Of a stretch of 64,000 bases of DNA, positions 18,636-32,842 are shown in pieces. How positions within the stretch are numbered: the stretch's first letter is position 1; the number at the start of each line of letters is the position of its first letter. The stretch lies in the NCBI GenBank assembly GCA_021324415.1, contig JAJPJF010000419.1, forward strand, positions 1-64,000, given 5' to 3'. Made by a program: the position numbers and the translations under genes. The stretch comes from Nostocales cyanobacterium Centralia_MAG_434. Lineage in GTDB: Bacteria; Cyanobacteriota; Cyanobacteriia; Cyanobacteriales; Nostocaceae. The notes under the pieces were generated by a model, which did no database searches, was not told where the DNA came from, and saw nothing but the letters and a program-made list of their open reading frames with translations.

Positions 18636-21569
18636 TTAAACCATTTGCCGAGCAATGAGCTGGGCAAAAAGACCCTGTTGCGTTGCTAGTTGATCAAAAC
18701 TACCTTGTTGCACAATTCTACCGTCTTGAAGAACATAGATACGATGAGCATTACGAATGGTGCTGAGTCGGTGGGCGATCGCAATTCGGGTGACCTGCAA
18801 CCGCTCTAAACTTTGGCTAACAATTTCCTGCGTTTTGTTATCTAAGGCACTAGTCGCTTCATCAAACAGCAGAATACGAGGTTTTAAAGCCAAAGCACGA
18901 GCAATCAAAAGCCTTTGTCTTTGTCCTCCAGAGAGATTACTTCCTCCCTCACTGACAATAGTATGCATACCCATTGGCATAGCTTCAACATCCTCTGCAA
19001 AGCCAGAGGCTCTAGCTGCTTCCCAAGCTTCATCCATAGTGATTAGTGCTCCACTGGCGATATTATCGAAAATGGAACCTGCCATCATTCGACTGTTTTG
19101 CATCACGACGCCCAATTGTCGTCGTACAGCATTGACATCTAACCCAGCTAGATCTTGCCCATCATAGTAAATCGTGCCAGATTCAGGGACATCAAATCCC
19201 AGTAATAAGCGAAACAAAGTTGATTTACCACTTCCAGAAGGTCCTACTAGAGCAATATACTCTCCTGGTTCAGTACGAATACTGACATCATCTAATGTGA
19301 TCGGTCCGTCATCTCGGTAGCGGAAGATGACATGGTCTACACGCAGTCTACCTGATAGCCTACCAGGATCAGTTTTGCTAGAATCTAATTCTGGTAAAGC
19401 TTTGAGTATTGGTTCGGCACGTTTCCACAAAGGCAAGACTTGCAAAACATCCACAACTGTGGTGCTCAAACTTGTTGTGCCACCGATAAAGCTACCAAAA
19501 GCGGCATTAAATGCTAAGAACACACCAGTAGATAAACCACTTTGACCTTGTTGTTGGGATTGCTCAAGCATGCTAACCGCTGCCAAGAAAAGGAGCGCAT
19601 TTGTGATGGGTGGTAGCACCTTGTTGATAAAGGTAACAATGTCTTCAATGTTTTGGGTACTCAGCATCAATCTTAGTTGCTGAGTGTACTGTTTACTCCA
19701 ATAAGCAAAGGCACGTGTCTCAGCTCCAGAAACTCGGATTTTAGTCACTCCATTAATCAGTTGCACCATGAGACCAAAAATCTCACCTTCTAACTCCAGC
19801 AACGGACGAACTTTCCGCACCGTTATCACACCATAAATAATAGTGATAGCAACATTCACAATAGCCACAACACAAGCCAACAGAGCGAGTATTGGACTGT
19901 AGTAAAACAGCAATCCTAGATTGAGCAACGAGAAAAAGCTGGAGAAAATACTTTTAAGAACAGTGCTACTGAGTTTATGGTGGATCTGAGAAATGGCGCT
20001 GACTCGGGATTTTAAGTCACCTATTGAGTACTGACGAAAAAAGGATGCCTTCAAGTTCAAAAGCCGATCCCATACTGCTGCTTGTGTAGAGGATTCAGCA
20101 AAGGTTTCTAGTCTAATGATGGCAAATGCTTCTGTAAGTTCAAACATGCTTTGCCCAAGAGTTGCCGCGAATAAACCCAAGGCGATTTGTACTAGTAACT
20201 CCCGGTTAGCATCAGGAATGGCATTGTCGATGAGAACAGCAGTGGCTTGCGGTGTGATCATTCCCAAGAGAGTGGTAATCACTCCAGCTACCATAATGAA
20301 GATGAGTTCCTTAACGTGTCCTTGCAGCGCAAACTGCAACAAATCAAATATTTTGAATTTTTTTTCGGGAAAAGGTCGATAAAATGTATAGCCAGTCGGA
20401 ACTAACTTGGCAGCAGTACGAGCATCTACGGGAGTTCTAGTCTGCGCTAAAGGATCAAAAATCTCGTAGCGATTGTCAGATACAGGTAATAGTGCGACAG
20501 GATGGTCGTCGTCACGAGTGTAAGTAAATATTGGACCTGAGTCTTTTTTCCACCACTTGTCAGTCAACGCAATCCGACGCATCCTAACTCGCGAAGCACG
20601 CGCGATCGCCTCTAATGGGTCTATCACTCGTCTCAGGTCTTCCGATTTAGCTGGGGGACGAATTGTAATTCCCAATACACGCCCAACAGCACCGACAGCA
20701 ATCAGTAGGGCTTGATCTGGGTCACCTGTTGGTGTCACCATTTGGGAATAAGCTGTTTTCCGTGGTGGTTCCAGCACAGATGACAGTTCTCCCAACGCCT
20801 CTTCCATCATCTGATAATTGAGACGTTCTCTTTCCTCAAATCTACGTACTTCTACTGACAACTCTGATTCTTCTAGCAGACCAATAGCATATAAGAAATA
20901 AGTAGTAAGATGACACAAACCGTCCAATACCACATCCCCATTGCGGAGATCGGTAATATTAGCAGTAGCAAACTCAACTGCATTATCTGCTTGCAACCAC
21001 ATATCTACATTCAGTGGTAACATTCTGGATGCTGGAGAGATCTCTAATTCTTCAATCCCCATCCATTTAGCGAATCCTTCCTGAATTTGCACCCAAGATA
21101 TAGTGTTATTTTGCGGCTGAAAGATCTCACCATGACTTAAAGAAAAATAGTTGAGACCCTCAGTATTAACTGGTATTGCAGGTGGGGTGATTTCAGAGAG
21201 TCCAAAGCCGAGTTGATTTATCCATCCCTCTACCCAGGCGATCGCATCATCATTGCCATTAGCAATCAATCTACTAAAATCTTCTGCGGAAATCTTGATG
21301 AGTTCTGTCTCCTCCATTGAAACCGCCAATATCTGGCGTTGCTCTTGGTCTCGTGGAGAACTGGAAAACACTGCTCCCCCATCACCTATAGTAAATAGAT
21401 AACGGCGGCTTCCCTCAGGAATACCATTCCTAACCTGGATAGAAAACAGCCCTAAAGAGCCAGATTTAATCACCCAAATAGTCTGGGTATCATTCAAAAG
21501 TATCGGCTCATTACCCTTTAGAAAATACCGCTCTCCCTGCGGAATGACAAGCCTGAGTTCCTCTAGCAT
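18636..21569 (-). CDS. NHLP-type bacteriocin export ABC permease/ATPase (second subunit)
   Basis: ABC exporter of about 977 residues, matching the NHLP bacteriocin export permease/ATPase subunit that pairs with a peptidase-bearing partner. The ~410-residue N-terminal region begins with a cNMP-binding-like fold (EPILLNDTQTIWVIKSGSLG) and includes a domain of unknown role. Six membrane segments follow (about 425-710). The ATPase domain has GPSGSGKST, NLSGGQRQRLLIARA and ILLFDEATSALD, all intact. There is no C39 domain, so it relies on the adjacent exporter for leader cleavage. I chose the ATG at 21569, preceded by GAAGGAAG; a TTG at 21587 is the longer alternative. It lies downstream of the C39 exporter on the same strand. 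Confidence 0.92.
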   Translation of the reverse strand: MLEELRLVIPQGERYFLKGNEPILLNDTQTIWVIKSGSLGLFSIQVRNGIPEGSRRYLFTIGDGGAVFSSSPRDQEQRQILAVSMEETELIKISAEDFSRLIANGNDDAIAWVEGWINQLGFGLSEITPPAIPVNTEGLNYFSLSHGEIFQPQNNTISWVQIQEGFAKWMGIEELEISPASRMLPLNVDMWLQADNAVEFATANITDLRNGDVVLDGLCHLTTYFLYAIGLLEESELSVEVRRFEERERLNYQMMEEALGELSSVLEPPRKTAYSQMVTPTGDPDQALLIAVGAVGRVLGITIRPPAKSEDLRRVIDPLEAIARASRVRMRRIALTDKWWKKDSGPIFTYTRDDDHPVALLPVSDNRYEIFDPLAQTRTPVDARTAAKLVPTGYTFYRPFPEKKFKIFDLLQFALQGHVKELIFIMVAGVITTLLGMITPQATAVLIDNAIPDANRELLVQIALGLFAATLGQSMFELTEAFAIIRLETFAESSTQAAVWDRLLNLKASFFRQYSIGDLKSRVSAISQIHHKLSSTVLKSIFSSFFSLLNLGLLFYYSPILALLACVVAIVNVAITIIYGVITVRKVRPLLELEGEIFGLMVQLINGVTKIRVSGAETRAFAYWSKQYTQQLRLMLSTQNIEDIVTFINKVLPPITNALLFLAAVSMLEQSQQQGQSGLSTGVFLAFNAAFGSFIGGTTSLSTTVVDVLQVLPLWKRAEPILKALPELDSSKTDPGRLSGRLRVDHVIFRYRDDGPITLDDVSIRTEPGEYIALVGPSGSGKSTLFRLLLGFDVPESGTIYYDGQDLAGLDVNAVRRQLGVVMQNSRMMAGSIFDNIASGALITMDEAWEAARASGFAEDVEAMPMGMHTIVSEGGSNLSGGQRQRLLIARALALKPRILLFDEATSALDNKTQEIVSQSLERLQVTRIAIAHRLSTIRNAHRIYVLQDGRIVQQGSFDQLATQQGLFAQLIARQMV

Positions 21570-21611
21570 CACTTCCTTCGCTCCCAATAAAACTTAATTA
21601 ATCCCTGATAA

Positions 21612-21670: not shown

Positions 21671-23890
21671 TTAAAGAGCCCCTCCCTCACTCCGGATTAA
21701 TTGCAAGTATGGACCGTCAACTTGCTTCAATTCATCATGACTGCCTCGTTGAACAACCTTACCCCGATGCATGACAATAATTTCATCACAATCTCGAATA
21801 GTGCTAAGTCGGTGGGCTACGATAATGCAAGTACAGCCCCGTTTGCGGAGATTTCGGTCAATAATTTTTTCCGTCTCAGTATCAAGGGCACTAGTGGCTT
21901 CGTCCATCACCAAAATAGCAGGATTGTTGACCAACGCTCGGGCAATTTCCAGTCGTTGTCTTTGTCCTCCACTTAAATTGCTGGCACCTTCTAAAAGCTG
22001 GGCACCATAGCCTCCAGGCATTGAGATCACAACATCATGGATTGCCGCATCTTTACATGCACGGACCAAGTGACTTTCGGGTATTGTTGTATCCCATAGT
22101 GTCAAATTATCTCTAACGCTACCAGCAAACAAAAAGATGTCTTGTTCTACAAGAGCAATAGAGTTTACTAGCACTTGGCGAGGAACTAGCGTTCTGGGTT
22201 GACCATCAAAAAGAATCTCTCCCTGCCAAGGTGCATACAATCCACTAATTAATTTGGCGATCGTAGACTTACCAGAACCACTCCCACCTACTAAAGCAAC
22301 TCGCTGTCCAGGTTTGAGAGAGAAATTGAAATTTTCAATCAAAGGAGGAGCAACTCGGCTGTAACCAAAGGTTATATTGCGTAACTCTACATACCCTTGC
22401 AATTTAGGCGCTATGGCATAAGACATTGGAGATTTACCATCGTCTTTTGCCTCTTGCTCTTTGCTATTCTCTGCCTGTTGTAATTGCGAATCGACAGGGT
22501 TGCTCAAAACATCATCTAAGCGGTTAACACTACCCTCAACTTCTTGAAGGTTACTTCCAAGGCTGATGAGATTATTGACAGGTTCTAGAAACTGCTGCAT
22601 TAAAGCCTGAAATGCTATTAGCATTCCAATGGTCAGATGTCCATCAATCACTCGAAGACCACCCAGCGTCAAAAGTAACATGGATGCAATTCTGGAGAGA
22701 AACGAAGGTAAAACCCCCAGAGTTTGGTTTGTTACATCCATTTCCTGTTGAGTATTAACCGATTTGGCATAGTAACCGGCCCATTTCGAAAAGAAATCTG
22801 ACTCTAAGCCTGAAGCTTTGAGTGTTTCCATACTCTGAAGACCAGAAATAGAGACACCAGCAACTTTTCCCTGATCCTGTTGCAATTTTATATTGGCGTC
22901 TACACGTTGCCTTGCTACCCACTGCAATGCCACGAGATTCACAATAACAAAAGCTATACCAATGGAAGTCAGTACAACATCATATTGCAACATGACCACT
23001 GCATAAAAAATCACTGTCACTGCTGCAATAGCAGTCGTTGCTAATCTGCCTGAAAGTAGGTTGGCTAAGCCATCGTTAAGAGTAACTCGGCTACTGATTT
23101 CTCCAGCAAACCGTTGATCGTAAAAACTCACTGGTAAGCGCAGAATGTGCCATAGAAACTGACTAGACATTCCCACAGACAGTTTGATTCTCATTCGGCG
23201 TAGAAACTGCAGCTGTAGTAGGGTTAAAATTCCCATCACGCCTGCTGTGATCAACATCCCTGCAATCAACGGGTGCAGCCATTCGACTCTGTGCTGAATC
23301 AAAATACTATCGACAAACACCTGGGAAAATGTTGGCATTGCCAATCCAGGGATCACAAGCAGCAAGCCTGCGATTATACAATAGATAAGCGCGCCGAGTG
23401 AATAACGGAGCCTTTCCCACAAAGCTAGAAGAAGGTTTGATTTCTGTCCCCCTTTTTTAAAATCTGGACCAGGCTGTAAAACCAAAACTACGCCAGTGAA
23501 GGAATTGCTAAACTCTTCAACAGAGACATGACGTGGTCCGCTGGCTGGATCATTGAGATAAACTCGATCCTTACCGAATCCTTCTACCACCAGAAAATGA
23601 TTGAAGTTCCAAAACACAATGTAGGGGCATTGCATCTCTTTTAATCCTTCCAATTCTGTCTTAAAGCCTTTGGCATTTAGCCCATAGCCTTTGGCAGCAT
23701 TGAGGATATTGGTGGCTTTACTTCCATCCCGCGAAATTCCACAATCTTGACGAAGCTTTGCCAGTGGTACAATTCGACCGTAGTAACCAAGAATAATTCC
23801 TAAAGAAGCAGCGCCACATTCTACCGCCTCCATTTGTAGTAATGTGGGAGTACGACGTCGAGCAGTTTTCCGTCTAGTTAGTCCTAACAT
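21671..23890 (-). CDS. NHLP-family C39 peptidase/permease/ATPase exporter
   Basis: Peptidase-containing ABC exporter of 739 residues. The N-terminal C39 domain has its catalytic residues: Cys25 in VECGAAS, His98 in FNHFLVVEG and Asp114 in YLNDPASG. Such domains cut leader peptides after a double glycine while exporting the product. Six membrane segments follow (about 160-440). The ATPase domain has GGSGSGKST, NLSGGQRQRLEIARA and ILVMDEATSALD. The three precursors encoded upstream all have leaders ending in GG, which fits this protease. The ATG is at 23890. A heptamer repeat separates it from the second exporter gene. It is the core of the peptide-export locus. Confidence 0.94.
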   Translation of the reverse strand: MLGLTRRKTARRRTPTLLQMEAVECGAASLGIILGYYGRIVPLAKLRQDCGISRDGSKATNILNAAKGYGLNAKGFKTELEGLKEMQCPYIVFWNFNHFLVVEGFGKDRVYLNDPASGPRHVSVEEFSNSFTGVVLVLQPGPDFKKGGQKSNLLLALWERLRYSLGALIYCIIAGLLLVIPGLAMPTFSQVFVDSILIQHRVEWLHPLIAGMLITAGVMGILTLLQLQFLRRMRIKLSVGMSSQFLWHILRLPVSFYDQRFAGEISSRVTLNDGLANLLSGRLATTAIAAVTVIFYAVVMLQYDVVLTSIGIAFVIVNLVALQWVARQRVDANIKLQQDQGKVAGVSISGLQSMETLKASGLESDFFSKWAGYYAKSVNTQQEMDVTNQTLGVLPSFLSRIASMLLLTLGGLRVIDGHLTIGMLIAFQALMQQFLEPVNNLISLGSNLQEVEGSVNRLDDVLSNPVDSQLQQAENSKEQEAKDDGKSPMSYAIAPKLQGYVELRNITFGYSRVAPPLIENFNFSLKPGQRVALVGGSGSGKSTIAKLISGLYAPWQGEILFDGQPRTLVPRQVLVNSIALVEQDIFLFAGSVRDNLTLWDTTIPESHLVRACKDAAIHDVVISMPGGYGAQLLEGASNLSGGQRQRLEIARALVNNPAILVMDEATSALDTETEKIIDRNLRKRGCTCIIVAHRLSTIRDCDEIIVMHRGKVVQRGSHDELKQVDGPYLQLIRSEGGAL

Positions 23891-24096: not shown

Positions 24097-25536
24097 TCAA
24101 TCAGCCCCAGTCCAAGATTTCAGGATAGGCAACACAAAGGTAATTGGGGCCTCTTCCTTAACAGTGATGCGTACAGAGGTAGTGGTTCCGGGAGACATTT
24201 TCGTATCTGGACCTTTGGAAGAAGACCACTTGTAGCCACTGAAGGTTGCGGGATCTGGTTTAAGTTCTGCCAAAACTTGGATTTGCGGTTCTGTAGATAC
24301 TAGACTTCCCACAATGTCTGAATTGCCAACTACTTTTGCCGCACTCTCTTTAGTAACAGGAAAAGGTGAAACACTGGTGACATTAGCCAAAATACCACCA
24401 AAGCGTTCCCGCTCTACAGTAGAGGGGGTAATTTGTACTTTCATGCCCTTTTGAATCTTTTTGCCTTGACTAACTGGCAAAAATGCGACTTCAACCAATT
24501 TGGCAGATGGGGATTGTGCATCTATGGTCCCGATACGGGTTCCTTGTCCTAAAATTTGTCCGGGAGTGGCAGTAATTTCTAAAATGCGTCCAGTGTAGTC
24601 ACTCTTGATCACAGAGGTTTGCTTTAGTTGATATTCTAGTTGGGCAATACTCCGCTTCAAATCTGCAATTTGATTTTGCCGGGTCACTGAAGCTTGGAAA
24701 TTTTGCTCTGATAGAGTTTTTTCCTTGCTGTCTAATTGTTTGAGCTGGGTTTTTATATCGTCAATTTGGCTGAGGTTCTCTCTGTAGGACTTTTCTGCCT
24801 GAACTTGGCTGATATCTAATTGCTTGATTTGTTGCTTAATATCAGCAATTTTTTGGATACTGTCAGCGTAGGTTTGTTCTGCTTCCAACACTGTATCGTC
24901 CGAAATCGCCCCTTGCGCCTTTAGTGCTCTGCGACGCTCCAGCCTATCTTTTAGCGTAGGAGCTAAAGCCATAGCTTCTTGTAAGCGTTGCTCTAAATTT
25001 TGTCTTTGCTGAGCAAGAGCGCCAATGTCTTTATTTCTGATAATTGGGGTGAGAGACTGAGTCTGTAGCAAGCGTTGCTCTAGGGCTACACGCTGTTGGG
25101 CGATCGCATTTAGATCCAATTGACTGCGTTGACCTTGAAGCGACGTTGCATTCTGATTCTGCGACTCTAGTTCCGATAGTTTACTACGCTGCTGCTGTAG
25201 TTGCTTTTGAAGCTCGCTTTGGTCAATCGTGCCCAACACCTGTCCTTTCTTAACAAAATCTCCAACATGTACATTTAATGCCTGTAACTTTCCTGCAGTT
25301 GGGAATTCAAAGCCAACAACTTTGCTAGGATAGACTAGAACACCCCTACCTTCAACTGTAATGGGGATACGACCAACAATACTCCAAGTCACTCCAGCTG
25401 CAACCAGTGTACCCAAAGCAGCTAGAGGCAGCCATTTCATGGGGCTGACGACTTGCATAATTTGATCTAGGCGTTCAGGAGAGGAAGAACGCTCTAAAGC
25501 TTGTTTGCGAAATAGGTTTTTGGGCTGATTAACCAT
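24097..25536 (-). CDS. NHLP bacteriocin system HlyD-like secretion protein
   Basis: Membrane-fusion (periplasmic adaptor) protein of 479 residues. A single membrane anchor lies at about 34-54 (PLAALGTLVAAGVTWSIVG). A biotinyl-lipoyl-like half-motif (GRGVLVYPSKVVGFEFPTAG) follows, then long alpha-helical hairpins (about 105-320) rich in Gln, Leu and Arg. The second lipoyl half and beta-barrel come next (DYTGRILEITATPGQILGQG). This layout and the neighbours match the NHLP secretion protein that bridges the ABC exporters to the cell envelope. The ATG is at 25536, 86 bp after the cNMP-fold gene. It is part of the presumed minus-strand operon. Confidence 0.9.
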   Translation of the reverse strand: MVNQPKNLFRKQALERSSSPERLDQIMQVVSPMKWLPLAALGTLVAAGVTWSIVGRIPITVEGRGVLVYPSKVVGFEFPTAGKLQALNVHVGDFVKKGQVLGTIDQSELQKQLQQQRSKLSELESQNQNATSLQGQRSQLDLNAIAQQRVALEQRLLQTQSLTPIIRNKDIGALAQQRQNLEQRLQEAMALAPTLKDRLERRRALKAQGAISDDTVLEAEQTYADSIQKIADIKQQIKQLDISQVQAEKSYRENLSQIDDIKTQLKQLDSKEKTLSEQNFQASVTRQNQIADLKRSIAQLEYQLKQTSVIKSDYTGRILEITATPGQILGQGTRIGTIDAQSPSAKLVEVAFLPVSQGKKIQKGMKVQITPSTVERERFGGILANVTSVSPFPVTKESAAKVVGNSDIVGSLVSTEPQIQVLAELKPDPATFSGYKWSSSKGPDTKMSPGTTTSVRITVKEEAPITFVLPILKSWTGAD

Positions 25537-25622: not shown

Positions 25623-26723
25623 TTAACTGCGGCGAACTCTTTTGAGCATCCAATCAAATCTGGCTCCAGCTAGTGCTACTTGAGCCAAAAAATCAGCACT
25701 TAGTTCATTTTCATACTGAAGGCTGTCATCTAGCGACTTATCTTTGCTATAACTGAGTCTGCCGTAACCAAGCTGACTCACTATTGCTTTTTGTTTGTCT
25801 GCTAATAGAACTGAAAGCACCCGGTAAAAACGCGCAGCAAAACCCAAATCTTGTAGTAGTTTTGCAGCTAGTCTTGCTCGAGGAATCGACAACACTAGAG
25901 AGTCTTCTACGGCTTTAACACTTGCAGAAGGTGGTGGAGCCTCAACAAAGGGAGTTTCTCCAACCATGTCTCCACGAGATAATCTAGCTAACTCACGTTC
26001 TGTCGTAGCTTCACTGCCTTCCAAGTTAGAAAATGCTCGAGTCAAGGGATTGAGCTCATCCTCACAGATAGAAAGCGACAATTTTCCTTCTAGTAAGATA
26101 TGTAATGCCTCTACAGGTCTTCCCCCAGCAATTAAGACAGTATTTGCAGCAATTTTATTGACACTCCCTGCAACAATTAACCAATCAATGTCACTGTCTC
26201 GTAATTCTGCAAAGACAAATAGAATTTCTCTAAGCTGAGGCTGGCTAAGAACTAACGTACTCTGACCAAGTTGCCTAATAATCTTGTCTAATCTATCTGC
26301 CAATAAAATTGCAGTAGCTCGATAAAGATGAGCAGCAAAGCTAATATCCTGTTGCATTTTGGTCGCTAACTCACGTCTTGGAATTGACAAGACCTGCGAC
26401 TTTTGGATTGCTTTAACAGTAATAGAAGGCATGTATGCCTCTACAAAGGGAATTTCTCCTACAATCTCACCACTTGATAACTTAGCAATCTCACGCCCTG
26501 ACATTTCACCACCTTCTAGAGCAGCAAAAGCACGACCTAATGGATTGTTATCAGCCTGAGAGATAGAAACTGTAAGTGCTCCATCCAACAAAATATATAG
26601 TGAATCTACCGCCTGATTTGGACGGATGAGAACTGTTCCTGGAGCAAGTTCTTCCCTACTACCAGTAGCAAGCATCCAGTCAATATCGCTGTTATTCAGT
26701 TCCCTTAGTAGAACTTCTGTCAT
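25623..26723 (-). CDS. tandem cNMP-binding-fold protein of the peptide-export locus
   Basis: Soluble protein of 366 residues with two cyclic-nucleotide-binding-like domains (about 1-160 and 165-330), each starting with DIDW and containing an NTVLI- or GTVLI-type strand. The phosphate-binding cassettes read GEIVGEIPFVEAYMPSITVKA-like and GDMVGETPFVEAPPPSASVKA-like. At the position where true cNMP binders have Arg before (A/S)xTV, both have Pro, so nucleotide binding is doubtful. No DNA-binding domain is present, so it is not a CRP-type regulator. It lies first in the exporter block. Similar proteins accompany NHLP-type exporters in cyanobacteria, where a role in assembly or gating of transport is plausible. 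Part of a third, decayed copy lies at 27445-27580. Confidence 0.82.
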   Translation of the reverse strand: MTEVLLRELNNSDIDWMLATGSREELAPGTVLIRPNQAVDSLYILLDGALTVSISQADNNPLGRAFAALEGGEMSGREIAKLSSGEIVGEIPFVEAYMPSITVKAIQKSQVLSIPRRELATKMQQDISFAAHLYRATAILLADRLDKIIRQLGQSTLVLSQPQLREILFVFAELRDSDIDWLIVAGSVNKIAANTVLIAGGRPVEALHILLEGKLSLSICEDELNPLTRAFSNLEGSEATTERELARLSRGDMVGETPFVEAPPPSASVKAVEDSLVLSIPRARLAAKLLQDLGFAARFYRVLSVLLADKQKAIVSQLGYGRLSYSKDKSLDDSLQYENELSADFLAQVALAGARFDWMLKRVRRS

Positions 26724-26948
26724 AATTTAACTCTATTGATGTTTTCAAGAGCAGGAGAGTGTTTCGCATTGCGGCAATTACCCCAAAATTGAGGAATTGA
26801 GAGTTTAGCTGTTTTTCACTACCCTCATTTATTAAACAATGGTGACTAAGTTGTTAACTCATGCAGGTAGTCAAAAAATAGACTTTGACGTATTGTAAAC
26901 TTAATAAAGTAGATAAAGCTGATAAGTATTATTTTGCTTTATAAGAAC

Positions 26949-27218
26949 TTAGAGACCTCGAAATAAACGTTTAAGAAACTTAATATTACTAACATTCAAA
27001 CCAACAGCTTGAAAAGTATAGCTAACTATGTTTCTAGACGCGAAAACAGAATTCACTGAACTACCATGCTGATCAGTAGTAGTTGTCTGAGATGAAAACA
27101 CATCTGTTTCCTTAAAAAAAGAAAATGACAAAGAGATATCTCTACCACCAGCTATAGCATCTAATTCCTCTTCAGATAATTCAATAGGTTTACTAGGTTG
27201 CTCCATTTCATCTGACAT
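26949..27218 (-). CDS. double-glycine precursor peptide 1 (CTB-like bacteriocin)
   Basis: Peptide of 89 residues. The leader ends with ELSEEELDAIAGG at residue 26, a classic double-glycine cleavage site for C39 peptidases. The core of ~63 residues (from RDISLSF) is rich in Ser, Thr, Val and Phe, has no Cys, and ends in the basic stretch LKRLFRGL. An excellent ribosome binding site (GAGGAGG) precedes the ATG at 27218. It resembles the small secreted peptides annotated as CTB-family bacteriocins in cyanobacteria. It is the most diverged of the three and lies directly upstream of the exporter block. Export by the C39 exporter is a strong inference; biological activity is unknown. Confidence 0.82.
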   Translation of the reverse strand: MSDEMEQPSKPIELSEEELDAIAGGRDISLSFSFFKETDVFSSQTTTTDQHGSSVNSVFASRNIVSYTFQAVGLNVSNIKFLKRLFRGL

Positions 27219-27290
27219 AATTTCCTCCTCAATGATTGCCTAATTTGTTTAGGAATTTATTTGCGTGACAGTTGTTTTATTTCATTTGGA

Positions 27291-27425
27291 ACTGTGTTTA
27301 TAGTATAGATTTAATAGAACATAAACATCTGAAAAACGTCTTGAAGGTTAATTCAGCGAAATAGATAAACTGACTTTAACTTTCGTTGAGTCTCTAAGCA
27401 AATATTACTATAACTTAAGTCATAG
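27291..27425 (-). promoter_or_regulatory. conserved promoter module, copy 1
   Basis: First of three ~135-bp copies upstream of the precursor genes, reading toward precursor 1. On the minus strand it has a perfect TATACT -10 box at 27302-27307 and no good -35 box. A conserved GACGTTTTTCAGATGT block lies at 27325-27340 where an activator would overlap -35. An outer dyad has arms CAGCGAAA at 27354-27361 and TTTCGTTG at 27381-27388, with a 19-bp spacer. The dyad starts exactly 52 bp from the -10 box. Confidence 0.7.
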
Positions 27426-27444
27426 GTGGTAGATGAAAGTTCCA

Positions 27445-27580
27445 TTGTCGCATGGATAGAGTTTCAACAGGTCTTCCTCGAAGGATGAGAACTGTGTTGG
27501 TAGAAATTTTGTTGATATGCTAGAGGCGAATCAACCAATCAGCGTCAATCCTCAGGCAATTCTGCTAATGTCTTACCATG
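27445..27580 (-). pseudogene. remnant of a cNMP-binding-fold gene
   Basis: Minus-strand translation gives IDADWLIRL, an in-frame stop, then HINKISTNTVLILRGRPVET. This aligns with DIDWLIVAGSVNKIAANTVLIAGGRPVEA of the intact protein at 25623-26723. Upstream, LAELPED matches the FAELRDSD segment but in another frame, so a frameshift is also present. Only about 45 codons are recognisable; the rest has been lost and it is bounded by promoter module copy 1. It looks like a degraded partial duplicate of the neighbouring gene. The remaining bases of the 27426-28141 gap hold two hairpins, listed separately, and no other gene. Confidence 0.75.
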
Positions 27581-27633
27581 CAGTAATCCAGCGCACTCAT
27601 ACCCTAACAGTTCAAGTTCACTAGATAAAAAAT

Positions 27634-27664
27634 TTGCCTTGGGTAGCAAAGCTACCTACGGCAA
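27634..27664 (-). terminator. rho-independent terminator-like hairpin
   Basis: Nested stem with outer arms TTGCC/GGCAA and a perfect inner stem GGTAGC-AAA-GCTACC. On the minus strand it is followed by a run of six T. This is a good intrinsic terminator for transcripts coming from precursor 2, whose stop is about 480 bases upstream. Confidence 0.6.
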
Positions 27665-27990
27665 GCATTCAGTTAACATTGATATAACTTAATTTATCTG
27701 AGTAAACTCAGGAACATAATCGATATTTTTGATATTGTCAATAATTATAAAGCTAGGTTCGAATATACATTTATTAACTCATAGAGCAGTGAAATGCTAG
27801 TTGCTTAACTGCCAACGGTTCAAGGTTCTGTTTAAATGCTACTTCATTCATTTATGGAAACTTGTTGACTGAGAAAGATGCAGCAGATATACAGTAGAAA
27901 ACGGATATGTTTAAAGATATGTAAAGTAAGTAGAATAGACAATAAAAACACAACTTCGTAACGAACTCTAACCTTCTTGCATTTTATCCG

Positions 27991-28020
27991 TAGTTGTGCT
28001 TTAGCGCCAAAGCACAACTA
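27991..28020 (-). terminator. strong hairpin after precursor 2
   Basis: Perfect 12-bp stem (TAGTTGTGCTTT paired with its complement) with a 6-base loop, about 120 bases past the stop of precursor 2. There is no T-run on either strand, so it may stabilise or process the 3' end rather than terminate. Confidence 0.5.
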
Positions 28021-28141
28021 AGAACCAATAAGCAAAAATTAGTTGACAATATCTACAGATATTGATGTGTTAGCCGTGCTAACATAGCTCAAATTTATAA
28101 GCGTCTTTATAGATTTGTTTAATGTTATGGCCTCAAATTTA

Positions 28142-28363
28142 TTAAGAAATCACTACCTTTTTAAAACCAAAGGATGTAATTTCTTGTTGCTCAGCATGTG
28201 TTACAGAAACAAATCCACTACTACCTGTTGTAACAAACGAATCAAAGACATTTTGCTTTGAATGAAAAAAAGCAAATTCCAAATCTGTAATTGCTCCACC
28301 ATTCACTAGGTCTAATTCTTCATTAGACAATTCGATAGCGGTGTTGGTATTTTCAACTGACAT
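28142..28363 (-). CDS. double-glycine precursor peptide 2 (CTB-like bacteriocin)
   Basis: Peptide of 73 residues with leader ELSNEELDLVNGG ending at residue 23 and a core of ~50 residues starting AITDLEFAFFHSKQNVFDSF. The core lacks Cys and ends in FKKVVIS. The leader is nearly identical to that of precursor 3, while the cores differ strongly, as expected for a peptide family with a conserved export signal and diversified product. An AAGGAG ribosome binding site precedes the ATG at 28363. Promoter module copy 2 lies upstream and a strong hairpin downstream, so it is probably its own transcription unit. Cleavage and export by the C39 exporter are inferred. Confidence 0.82.
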   Translation of the reverse strand: MSVENTNTAIELSNEELDLVNGGAITDLEFAFFHSKQNVFDSFVTTGSSGFVSVTHAEQQEITSFGFKKVVIS

Positions 28364-28480
28364 AATTGGCTCCTTGGAAATGATTAAGAATTGTTTTTGT
28401 GTTAGTATGAATTGAACAGAAGTTTGAAACCAGACTTTTTTATTGCTTTGTTTGCGCGGACCTGTTCTCTTCTGTTCTTA

Positions 28481-28614
28481 ACTGTTTTTATCGTATAATT
28501 TTCACAAAACACTGACATCTGAAAAACGTCTCGATTGTACTCTCAACGAAATAGATAACTTCTATGGCACTTTCGTTGGTCTCCTAAGTACATATTCCTA
28601 AACTAAAGTCATAG
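28481..28614 (-). promoter_or_regulatory. conserved promoter module, copy 2
   Basis: Second copy, reading toward precursor 2. The -10-like box is TATACG at 28492-28497 (minus strand). The GACGTTTTTCAGATGT block is at 28515-28530. The outer dyad is perfect here: CAACGAAA at 28544-28551 and TTTCGTTG at 28571-28578 with a 19-bp spacer, starting 52 bp from the -10-like box as in the other copies. The 5' untranslated region would be about 120 bases. Confidence 0.7.
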
Positions 28615-28616
28615 TT

Positions 28617-28730
28617 AAGCGTAAGGCACTCGGCTCTTAAAGCTCAACGCCTCCTAAGCGATAGCCGGATTGGTTGAGAAGCCTACACTCAGTCCGAAGA
28701 ACGAGTGTAGGAGTGTGTCACCATTCCCTG
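28617..28730 (+). mobile_element. possible IS200/IS605-type end remnant
   Basis: The sequence ends in GGTTGAGAAGCC, a hairpin with 9-bp arms CCTACACTC (28682-28690) and GAGTGTAGG (28703-28711), then AGTGTGTCA. This arrangement resembles the right end and guide-RNA scaffold of IS200/IS605-family elements carrying tnpB. No tnpA or tnpB reading frame is present here, so at most this is a small remnant. The likeness is from memory of the family and needs an alignment. Confidence 0.35.
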
Positions 28731-28749
28731 TGCTAAGTAGAAGAAACAA

Positions 28750-28971
28750 TTAGCTAATGGAGATGGTCTTAGCACCCTTAGCTAGGGTAGTGTTATTGAG
28801 CGCAAGAGTTCCAGAAGTGACACCATAAGGACCAACGCTAAAGTTGGAGACTAAAGCATTTTCCTTAGTCAAAAAGCTAGCAGCCTCAGAATCTGAGATA
28901 GCACCACCATTTACTAGGTCTAATTCTTCGCTGGACAATTCGATAGCGCTGTTGGTGATTTCAACTGACAT
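28750..28971 (-). CDS. double-glycine precursor peptide 3 (CTB-like bacteriocin)
   Basis: Peptide of 73 residues with leader ELSSEELDLVNGG ending at residue 23. The core begins AISDSEAASFLTKENALVSN and ends AKGAKTISIS; it is rich in small residues and has no Cys. The leader matches precursor 2 almost residue for residue. An AAGGAG ribosome binding site precedes the ATG at 28971. Promoter module copy 3 lies upstream, and the NarL-type regulator gene beyond it is divergent. It is the outermost gene of the peptide-export locus. The lack of lantibiotic, radical-SAM or YcaO genes nearby suggests that the product is unmodified. Confidence 0.82.
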   Translation of the reverse strand: MSVEITNSAIELSSEELDLVNGGAISDSEAASFLTKENALVSNFSVGPYGVTSGTLALNNTTLAKGAKTISIS

Positions 28972-29090
28972 GATTAACTCCTTATAATTTGTTCAAATAT
29001 GGTTGTAGTTTTGTTGTCAAAAAAAGCAGAGGTTTGAACCTCAACTTTTTATTTGTTTGTTTAAGTCAACTTTGTTCTGTTGTTTCCTTA

Positions 29091-29225
29091 ACTGTGTTTA
29101 TCGTAGGATTTCTACCACAAATAAACATCTGAAAAATGTCTTGAGTGTTGCATCAACCAAATAAATAGCTTCACTAGCACTTTCGTAGGACTGATAAGTA
29201 AATACTCCTAAACCTAAGTTATAGG
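29091..29225 (-). promoter_or_regulatory. conserved promoter module, copy 3
   Basis: Third copy, reading toward precursor 3. The block GACATTTTTCAGATGT is at 29125-29140. The dyad arms are CAACCAAA at 29154-29161 and TTTCGTAG at 29181-29188, again with a 19-bp spacer and starting 52 bp from the -10 position at 29102-29107. The -10 and dyad are less perfect than in copies 1 and 2. It lies in the gap shared with the divergent regulator gene, whose own promoter must also be there. Confidence 0.65.
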
Positions 29226-29354
29226 TATGGAGAGTCACAAGGATAGTCCCGAAAGGTGGTAGGATGTTGAGAAAAGTAAATATATATGTAAATCCATCCG
29301 TAAACCTTCAACCTCACTCAGTAGTAGTCAACATACTCCCGCAAACAAAGTGAA

Positions 29355-30020
29355 ATGCAATCTTCTATGATTAGTTTGTTATTAGTAGACGACCAACCTC
29401 TCATCCGTAACGGTATCAAGGCCATGCTAAACTTAGAGCCGGATTTAGAAGTGATCGGAACTGCTGATAATGGTGAAACTGCTGTTGAACAGGTAGAAGC
29501 ATTACAACCGGATGTGGTATTGATGGATATGCGGATGCCTGTGATGGACGGAATATCGGCAACGCAAATTATTACTGAGCGGTTCCCTAGTATTAAGGTT
29601 TTAGTATTAACAACATTTGATGATGATAAATATATCTCTGATGCTATGCGAGCAGGAGCAAAGGGCTATTTACTAAAAGATATGCCGTCTGAAGAGCTAG
29701 CACAGGCTATTCGGTTTGTCCAGAAAGGTTACACTCAGATGGCTCCTGGTCTATTGGAAAAAATAATTGCTAAAACCCCAGCCGCAGCTCCTGTAAGTCA
29801 GAAAAAAGCACCAGATCAGCAAGAACTCAGCACGTTGACTAATAGAGAGCAAGAAGTGTTGCGCTTGCTTGGTATTGGTGCTACGAACCGCGAAATTGCA
29901 CAGCAGCTTTATATTTCAGAAGGAACAGTCAAAACTCATGTCACTCACTTACTGAACCGTCTAAACCTGAAAAACCGCGCACAACTAGCAATCTATGCGA
30001 ATTCTGCCTATGGTAGTTGA
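29355..30020 (+). CDS. NarL/FixJ-type response regulator
   Basis: DNA-binding response regulator of 221 residues. The receiver has its acidic pair in VDDQ, Asp58 in VVLMDMRMPVMDG and Lys in YLLKDMP. A LuxR-type helix-turn-helix (about 150-215) contains LTNREQEVLRLL and EGTVKTHVTHLLNRL. All key residues are intact. The ATG is at 29355, with a second ATG at 29367. It is divergent from precursor 3 and convergent with the photoreceptor kinase, with 2 bp between stops. It is the only local candidate to bind the three promoter modules. NarL-type regulators usually pair with HisKA_3 kinases, none of which is in this window. Confidence 0.92.
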   Translation: MQSSMISLLLVDDQPLIRNGIKAMLNLEPDLEVIGTADNGETAVEQVEALQPDVVLMDMRMPVMDGISATQIITERFPSIKVLVLTTFDDDKYISDAMRAGAKGYLLKDMPSEELAQAIRFVQKGYTQMAPGLLEKIIAKTPAAAPVSQKKAPDQQELSTLTNREQEVLRLLGIGATNREIAQQLYISEGTVKTHVTHLLNRLNLKNRAQLAIYANSAYGS

Positions 30021-30022
30021 GA

Positions 30023-32842
30023 TCAAAAACGTGGCTTTCTTATAGAAAACTCAGGAGTAAAGGGTTGTTTGAGGGGAATCTCAATCCAGAACTCTGTACC
30101 TTTACTAGGTTCTGAGACACACCTGATAACTCCACCATGCTTTTCCACAATAATCTGATAGCTGATTGCTAACCCTAATCCTGTACCCTTACCCACCGGC
30201 TTGGTAGTAAAAAAGGGATCAAAAATTCGCTTTTTAATATCTTCGTTCATTCCTCGCCCATTATCGGCAATGCAAATGGCAATATGGGCGTTATCTGCTA
30301 AAACTTGTGTAGAAATCCAAATTGTCGGAATTACGATTTGTTCTGAGTCATTTTTTGGCAAGTCCTGTCCTAGTTGTGTATGTTCATGATGATTTACAGA
30401 TGATAAACATCCACCGATAAATGCATCTTCTACAGCATCAATTGCATTGCTGAGAATATTCATGAATACTTGATTCATTTGACCAGCAAAGCATTCTATA
30501 ACTGGCAAGTTACTGTAACCTTTAATAATCTTAATACCAGGAAAATCTGTTTTTGGCTTGAAACGATGTTGCAAAATCAACAGAGTGTTATCTATGCCTT
30601 CATGCAAATCAACTGGTTTCATTTCAGCGTGATCTAGTCGAGAAAAATTGCGTAACGACAGCACCAGTGAACGAATACGATCAGATCCTACTTGCATTGA
30701 AGACATAATTTTCGGTAGGTCATCTGCCAGAAACTCCAAATCAATCTCTTCAGCTTTGAAACGAATCTCTTGGTTAGGGTGAGGATAATTCTTTTGGTAA
30801 AGACGCAAAAGCTCTAGCAATCCTTGCGTATAGTTAATTGCATGATTGAGGTTACCGTAGATGAAGTTGACAGGATTATTAATTTCATGTGCCAACCCTG
30901 CTACTAACTGTCCCAAACTAGACATTTTTTCAGTTTGAACCAGTTGTGTCTGTGTTTGTTGTAGTTCTTTGAGGGTATGCTCTAACTGTAAGGCTTTTGC
31001 TGTCGCCTTTGTTTCAGCCGTGCGGCTTTGTTGGTAGAGTTGCGCTTGTTGAATAGCGATCGCTGCCTGATCTGCTAGTTGCTGTAGTAATTCAATTTCA
31101 GTATCTTGCCAATCTCTAGGAGACTCACACTCATGGGCAATCAGCAAACCCCACAGTTGATTCCCCATATTGATGGGTACAATCAAGTTAGCTTGTACTT
31201 GAAGACTTTGCAAAAAGTTTTGATGACAAGGACTTAAAAAAGCCTCGAAAACATTGTTAATTGCCCTTATCCTACCACGAAAGTAAAAAAGGGCATATTC
31301 ATGAGGAAAGCAGTGTGGTGGTGCTTTTATCCCCAAAACAGATTGCCAGTTACCTTTAACCTCTTCAACTATCACCTCTCCTTGAAAATCGTCCGAAAGT
31401 TGGTAAATGAGCACTCGGTCTGTGTTAAGCAACTTGTGGATTTCCCGTACAATAGTTTGCAAGATTGTTTTTAAGTCCAAGGTGCTACGTATCTGGTTTG
31501 TAACTTGCTTGACGACATTAGCAAGCTGCAATGACTTTTGCAATTCAGCTGTTTGCTGTCTCACCTGACATTCAAGGTTGAGATTTAGATCTTGCAACTG
31601 CTTGTACATTTGCTGCTGCTGAATTGCTGTTGAGAATTGGTGGCATAAAGCTTGTGCAAGAGCAATATCTTCAGGCTTCCATTCAGGTGCTTGTCCTTTT
31701 CTCTCCTCTCGCCACGCTGCAAAAGAAATCTGAGGTAGCTGTTGTTGCTGATTTTGCTCACGTTGTCCTGCCCACAAAATTTCTGTATCAAATTCATTAC
31801 GGAAAATACTGAAAAATCCAATAAAATTCTGACGATAATATAAAGGGATGATTAAGACTCCTCGAATACGAGTAGACCGAAATGCCAAAGCCAAAACCCG
31901 CCATGCTGGTTCTTTGTAAAGGTCACTAACTACCCATAGGTCACCCATTTTGCAATTGGCTGCCCAATTTTGCCACGCAGGATGTTCTTCCAGCACGCAG
32001 TTTTCTGACTGGGAGGACAGTAACGGTTGGTCACCGCAAGTGTATAGCTTTGCAGTCTGTGCAATGTAAAGTCTCCCACCTGCTCCTTGAAGAGCTGCTA
32101 TAGTGGCTTCTAACGCTCCTTGTAATTGGACTGTCGGCAGTGAGTGCAATAGTGTAGTAACTTGGTTAATAATTGCTTCTCGCTGTTGCTCAGCACGGGC
32201 TTGGGTAAGGAGTTGACTTTGAGAGATCGCGATCGCCACCTGATCGGCGACTTGCTGCACTACTCTTATTTCTTGCGGTGAAATCGCTCTTGATTTGCTA
32301 TGATGTGATACTAACAATCCCCATAAATGTGGTGAGGCTGATTGCTCATTTTGTTGGAGATTATGATGTAAAATTGGCACAACTAGAGAAGATTGCACAC
32401 CCATAGCCTTGAGATATTCAATATGGCAGGGATTGACTTCTCGATAGTAAATATCAGTTTTTAGAGATTGGCTAGTTTCTAGACCCTCTAATGGCGATAG
32501 CCCAATTTTACCATTGCTCACATCCACAATTGAACGCTGGCGTGCTTTGAGAAACATCTCTCTAGCATCTGGGGGTATGTCGTTTGCTGGAAAATGTAAC
32601 CCTAATAGCGAAGGTAAATTTTCCTCATGCCTTGATTCAGCAATCACTTGACCATTATCATTAGCATCAAAGCGATAGACTTTCACCCGATCCGTATTTA
32701 AAAATAAACGAACTTCAACAACAGTAGCCTCTAATATTTCTTGAAGTTCCAGCGATTGCCGAATACGGTTGGTCATCCGGTGCAGTAAATCTTCCTGCTC
32801 CAATGTTGATAACCAACCGCTAGGGTTGTTGGATAAATTCAT
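30023..32842 (-). CDS. Cph2-type phytochrome / cyanobacteriochrome-like histidine kinase
   Basis: Kinase of 939 residues with three GAF domains. GAF1 (about 18-212) has the phytochrome motif DIPPDAR (from Asp88) and a bilin-site Cys139-His140 in [17 protein letters not shown]2 (about 220-410) carries a long insert with [11 protein letters not shown] (from 370), like the PHY-type tongue of Cph2 proteins, whose PRxSF motif it nearly keeps. GAF3 (about 440-603) has Cys539-His540 in SPCHQNFL plus Cys511 in PHCFPHEY, the two-cysteine arrangement of DXCF cyanobacteriochromes, with Pro in place of the Asp. The transmitter has [14 protein letters not shown] (His652) and an intact ATPase domain. It probably senses light through covalently bound bilins. 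No output partner is certain. Confidence 0.85.

Follow-up and report, generated by a model that had tools for sequence, protein, structure and literature searches.

A conserved promoter module upstream of CTB-family bacteriocin precursor genes probably marks a cyanobacterial regulon, with a NarL-family response regulator as candidate activator

In the 64,000-nucleotide stretch of Nostocales cyanobacterium Centralia_MAG_434 DNA analyzed here (the window), three genes for CTB-family bacteriocin precursors each stand behind a copy of one module, and the same blocks at the same spacing recur before peptide and other genes in this genome and in further cyanobacteria. We read the module as an activator-dependent promoter bound by a NarL-family response regulator and driven by a HisKA_3 kinase, controlling the regulon formed by these genes, and put the probability of this reading at roughly 0.7. 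The computation itself shows the cis-architecture with its fixed spacing, how it is conserved and which genes are its targets, and both the cis-element and the regulon are well supported. In the mechanism that we propose, the module would be the regulatory half of the promoter of a widespread cyanobacterial regulon, with a -10 hexamer TAC(T/G)AT 19 bp downstream of an invariant AGAC(G/A)TTTTTCAGATGT block that would lie near -40 of the predicted start and replace the -35 box. Additional upstream sites (CAACGAAAGT, TATTTCGTTGAG and ACTTTAGTCgTAG) would load more activator, most plausibly the NarL-family response regulator encoded beside the third copy and its orthologs. A HisKA_3 kinase, often encoded next to the regulator gene, would phosphorylate the regulator, which in its active form would turn on the precursors and, in many genomes, also the exporter operon, RTX calcium-binding proteins, a Tll0287-like c-heme membrane sensor and a GST-like reductase. 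Phosphorylated NarL-family regulators are known to exert control of this kind.

All three copies lie on the minus strand and each points toward one precursor gene, as an earlier note on this DNA had described: copy 1 (27291..27425) serves the precursor at 26949..27218, copy 2 (28481..28614) that at 28142..28363, and copy 3 (29091..29225), which is divergent from the response-regulator gene, that at 28750..28971. The ~135-bp repeat was recovered by a repeat finder and by alignment as one family (27273-27427, 28463-28617 and 29073-29227), with pairwise best ungapped identities of 67-75% over 130 nt where shuffles reach at most 45%, and the copies match profile R2 at 27290-27422 (E 4e-25), 28480-28611 (E 1.8e-25) and 29090-29217 (E 3.5e-26). 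The GAC block described before, GAC(G/A)TTTTTCAGATGT, is exact in all three (27325-27340, 28515-28530 and 29125-29140) and is always 19 bp from the -10-like box, which reads TACTAT at 27300-27305 and TACGAT at both 28490-28495 and 29100-29105. The dyad arms (CAACGAAA/TTTCGCTG at 27381-27388 and 27354-27361, CAACGAAA/TTTCGTTG at 28571-28578 and 28544-28551, and CTACGAAA/TTTGGTTG at 29181-29188 and 29154-29161) enclose the claimed 19-bp spacer in every copy. A distance of exactly 52 bp from dyad to -10 had also been given; its constancy stands and its value does not, since the hexamer TAC(T/G)AT is 48 bp away and the figure of 52 requires a -10 placed a few bases further downstream. The GAC block is the best-conserved part, ahead of the dyad, and most copies elsewhere extend ~30 bp further upstream (ACTTTAGTCgTAG, then ATATTTACTTA). 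As a separate observation, a terminator-like hairpin (GAGGTTCAAACCTC then TGCTTTTTTT; window 29042-29029, minus strand) sits in the 5'UTR of precursor 3, downstream of the -10 and ahead of the start codon, with similar UTR sequence in related genes, and attenuation is possible there.

The precursors (89, 73 and 73 aa in the order given, all on the minus strand, the first with a double-glycine leader) score 56.1, 57.8 and 52.4 bits against NCBIfam NF038167, all above its curated cut-off of 32 bits, and are by sequence members of the CTB bacteriocin family, with a predicted antimicrobial role. Also on the minus strand, a gene for a TIGR03896 bacteriocin-type transport-associated protein with two cNMP-binding domains (25623..26723), homologs of which sit behind a module in other genomes, opens an exporter operon that includes an NHLM-type HlyD secretion protein (24097..25536; TIGR03794), an NHLM ABC exporter with a C39 peptidase (21671..23890; TIGR03796, PF03412), which is expected to cleave and export the peptides, and a second NHLM ABC exporter (18636..21587; TIGR03797). 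This gene set resembles the Group V cyanobacterial bacteriocin clusters, with two CAP_ED domains, HlyD, a C39 ABC exporter, a second ABC exporter and several double-glycine precursors, although the paper describing those clusters (PMC3140520) nowhere uses the terms promoter, response regulator or histidine kinase. Tandem CTB precursors under common control are likewise seen in the Nodularia CTB operon, for which induction of expression by phosphate limitation, and induction alone, has been reported (PMC9846622). The Pho-box-like octamer in the three copies is a single site, with no direct repeat.

Searches of this genome by DNA sequence and by profile placed the module before nine CTB precursors on seven contigs, the six beyond the window lying on contigs C113, C433, C301, C300, C428 and C271. 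The second genes of tandem arrangements (C301:7253 and C549:3344) have no module upstream, as expected for an operon. Four more modules front genes outside the CTB family: a Tll0287-like (c-heme) sensor gene followed by a ParA-like gene (C459), a gene called superoxide-dismutase-like from its sequence (C210), and genes for proteins of 53 (C38) and 128 residues (C372), neither with a Pfam match. The module is not specific to peptide genes and marks a wider regulon. It is absent upstream of a second CTB subfamily of this genome, with ‘type B’ leaders; these genes have a common upstream element of their own (ACTTTTTCCGACTC..ACCGAACTTATCCGACTGACAA, with CCGA(C/A) boxes ~10-11 bp apart) at seven loci on contigs C140, C449, C227, C177, C250 and C4, which is probably a second, separate regulon.

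The earlier note had proposed a profile search of this genome and its relatives, and the module recurs in both, before peptide genes and others, rather than as a general repeat unrelated to peptide genes. A first profile detected modules in 18 of 60 genomes, this one among them, and a second, derived from 27 diverse copies, did so in 33 of 159 (E 1e-6). A strict pattern (AGACNTTTTTCAGATGT, a gap of 18-20 bp, then TANNAT) matched 82 stretches in 84,980 bacterial and archaeal species, all with cyanobacterial titles (the cultured strains Fischerella sp. PCC 9431 and Tolypothrix campylonemoides VB511288 among them), where about 1.4 matches are expected by chance if equal bases are assumed. A phage origin of the module was considered and rejected, the strict pattern having no match in the viral collection. 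Behind modules in relatives we found, among others, genes for CTB precursors, for the TIGR03896 protein at the head of the exporter operon, for Tll0287-like sensors and RTX proteins, for a Nif11/NHLP leader peptide, and for GST-like reductases and Spy-type (LTXXQ) proteins. When 85 sites were roughly sorted, 10 went to CTB, 8 to the exporter operon, 8 to GST-like and 6 to RTX genes (an undercount, as several RTX proteins landed in ‘other’), 5 to Tll0287-like genes, 5 to kinases, 3 to DUF4278-type and 2 to ParA-like genes beside a sensor, with 38 left unassigned; because the first downstream gene was picked by a heuristic, single assignments may be wrong. Small YRG-repeat proteins are encoded directly behind modules at five loci in several non-Nostocales cyanobacteria, and the one that was scanned (L141) matches DUF4278. 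In one related genome (G004) a CTB array is broken by runs of unknown bases, and neighbors missing there may therefore be assembly gaps.

When 65 non-redundant sites were anchored on the block, the conserved letters ran, in order, ACTTTAGTCgTAG, ATATACTTA, CAACGAAAGT, TATTTCGTTGAG, then ATTC, the block and TAnnAT, the letters of block and -10 being fixed partly because the pattern demanded them; AGAC, GAT and, in the -10, TAnnAT nevertheless never vary across the 27 diverse copies found by profile. If transcription starts 6-7 nt behind the -10, the block centers near -40, from which we infer the position of a class II activator. The activator dependence suggested by the earlier note fits this placement of an invariant block and the lack, as it had also observed, of a good -35 box: no sigma-70-type two-hexamer match overlaps the three copies. 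In those copies we also found no NtcA site (GTA-N8-TAC) and no HLR1 site. The block is only weakly palindromic, which leaves room for a sigma-factor element, and the strongest competing explanation is that block and -10 form the promoter of an alternative sigma factor, with the upstream dyad a separate activator or UP-type region and the linked regulator acting on that upstream part alone or indirectly. The strict 18-20 bp from GATGT to TAnnAT, the asymmetry of the block and its placement over the -35 all speak for this. Against it, no sigma-factor gene was recognized among the recurrent module neighbors, the -10 has the usual TAnnAT form, and the SigJ J-Box (GGG.A...T) is absent from the three copies, so that we consider a sigma-factor promoter unlikely. 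The J-Box promoters of hormogonia are likewise widespread among cyanobacteria and have a weak -35, but the J-Box, GGGaAtacT, sits at the extended -10, whereas conservation of the module spans about -31 to -130 (PMC6495340). SigG was weighed as a candidate sigma factor as well, and no definition of its regulon was found in the literature searched.

The activator that we favor for this promoter is likely the NarL/FixJ-family response regulator encoded on the plus strand beside copy 3 (29355..30020), which carries Pfam Response_reg (PF00072) and GerE (PF00196) domains, over cut-off, and whose nearest solved structures are VraR, NarL, DesR and DevR. By our own reading of the regulator and module tables of related genomes, 18 of 29 homologs with at least 66% identity lie within ~2.1 kb of a module, as against 0 of 13 at lower identity, and the chance of such proximity is about 0.002 each; the distance is, for example, 28-35 bp in seven genomes and 156-204 bp in four. 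The module is present in 24 of 26 genomes with a regulator of at least 66% identity vs 9 of 133 without (Fisher p 6e-19), a figure inflated by shared ancestry, so that the adjacency of regulator and module carries more weight. A 100/99 branch in a tree of 35 regulators separates those linked to modules, together with a few that are unlinked, from the ordinary paralogs (three regulators, L195, L197 and L208, are marked unlinked there though model searches place modules nearby), and the recognition helix reads TVK[T/S] in module-linked regulators vs TVKN in unlinked paralogs. Counting against this regulator as the activator, nine module-bearing genomes (G004, G006 and G017 among them) have no regulator at 66% identity or more, and two regulator-bearing genomes have no module at the cut-off. 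As in the NarL, VraR, DesR and DevR/DosR regulons, a regulator with a receiver and a LuxR-type HTH is found with a HisKA_3 kinase nearby and inverted-repeat sites upstream of the -10. Unlike those regulons, the module has no consistent NarL heptamer: the canonical TACYYMT is not in copies 1 and 2 and, by sequence, occurs in copy 3 only. Some members of the NarL/FixJ family do without this heptamer, and we know of no match to the asymmetric GAC block and target set among those four regulons. This genome has a HisKA_3 kinase of the linked type on contig C459. A large GAF/PHY histidine kinase is convergent to the response-regulator gene (window 30023-32842, minus strand); its homologs do not recur near modules, and it need not therefore be the partner kinase.

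Another activator, for example of the AraC type, might instead read the block, with the response regulator linked as a target or in parallel. A ~17-20 bp asymmetric block over the -35 is similar to AraC-type sites, and one module, in a Myxosarcina MAG, stands before a gene of the AraC family, which counts against a NarL-family activator. We nevertheless regard this as improbable, given that no regulatory genes are commoner around modules than those for HisKA_3 kinases and for the NarL-type regulator, the latter in 20 loci, that among the 30 commonest neighbor clusters we recognized neither an AraC-type gene nor any further transcription factor or sigma factor, and that in the window and in several genomes the regulator gene lies upstream of the module or divergent from it rather than behind it. 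That the module is a transcribed RNA element (a leader or riboswitch-like structure) and not a set of DNA sites appears very improbable: the 8-bp inverted repeat with its constant loop and the pairing of 79% of cells, more than in slid controls, are in its favor, but changes on both sides are limited to 3 of the 8 pairs (208 of 500 shuffles were as high), the most variable pair is broken in 11 of 27 copies, the -10 lies downstream of the dyad, and no Rfam family reached its gathering score at 26600-29600, where matches were far below.

The statement that peptide cores differ while the module is kept was borne out by copy 1, in which the module is 65-66% identical to copies 2 and 3 and the leader 60-61%, vs 30-34% in the peptide core, 33-35% in the 5'UTR and 17-26% in the region upstream. 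Conservation of the module while 5'UTR and core diverged argues for selection on it beyond recent duplication; together with the tandem second genes that lack a module and the same architecture before unrelated genes, this upholds the preference for shared regulation over mere duplication. It is scarcely credible that the copies merely survive from a recent tandem duplication in which a gene was copied along with the region upstream, since, although the precursors are paralogs and their leaders are as identical as the modules, UTR and core have diverged well below the module, and the non-CTB targets already contradict it.

As to the signal, all seven Tll0287-like sensors near modules that were read, including that on contig C459 of this genome, share an identically placed CLRCH c-heme motif, and the one that was scanned has a HAMP domain. 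A 2026 preprint reports c-type heme binding by the Tll0287-like domain family and, for a HAMP-linked, membrane-bound member, behavior like that of a nitric-oxide sensor (PMC12889525). It is a guess that this sensor feeds the HisKA_3 kinase. More tentatively still than the activator itself, the NarL-family regulon might connect an extracytoplasmic c-heme (redox/nitric-oxide) sensor with a coordinated release of secreted peptides and RTX proteins, through a dedicated -35-less promoter common to several cyanobacterial families; we hold this to be a doubtful extension.

In the literature searched (CTB promoters, NarL regulators, bacteriocin clusters and HetC), we found no description of the motif, of CTB promoters, of a regulator of CTB genes, or of this regulon with its architecture and targets. 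The module probably marks a regulon not described before and points to its regulator. For the many cyanobacterial double-glycine peptides we know of hardly any trigger or regulator; what is gained is a named candidate regulator and a sequence signature with which targets may be found in any cyanobacterial genome. Since the module also ties the peptides to their exporter, to RTX proteins and to a heme sensor, it can now be tested directly what these peptides respond to.
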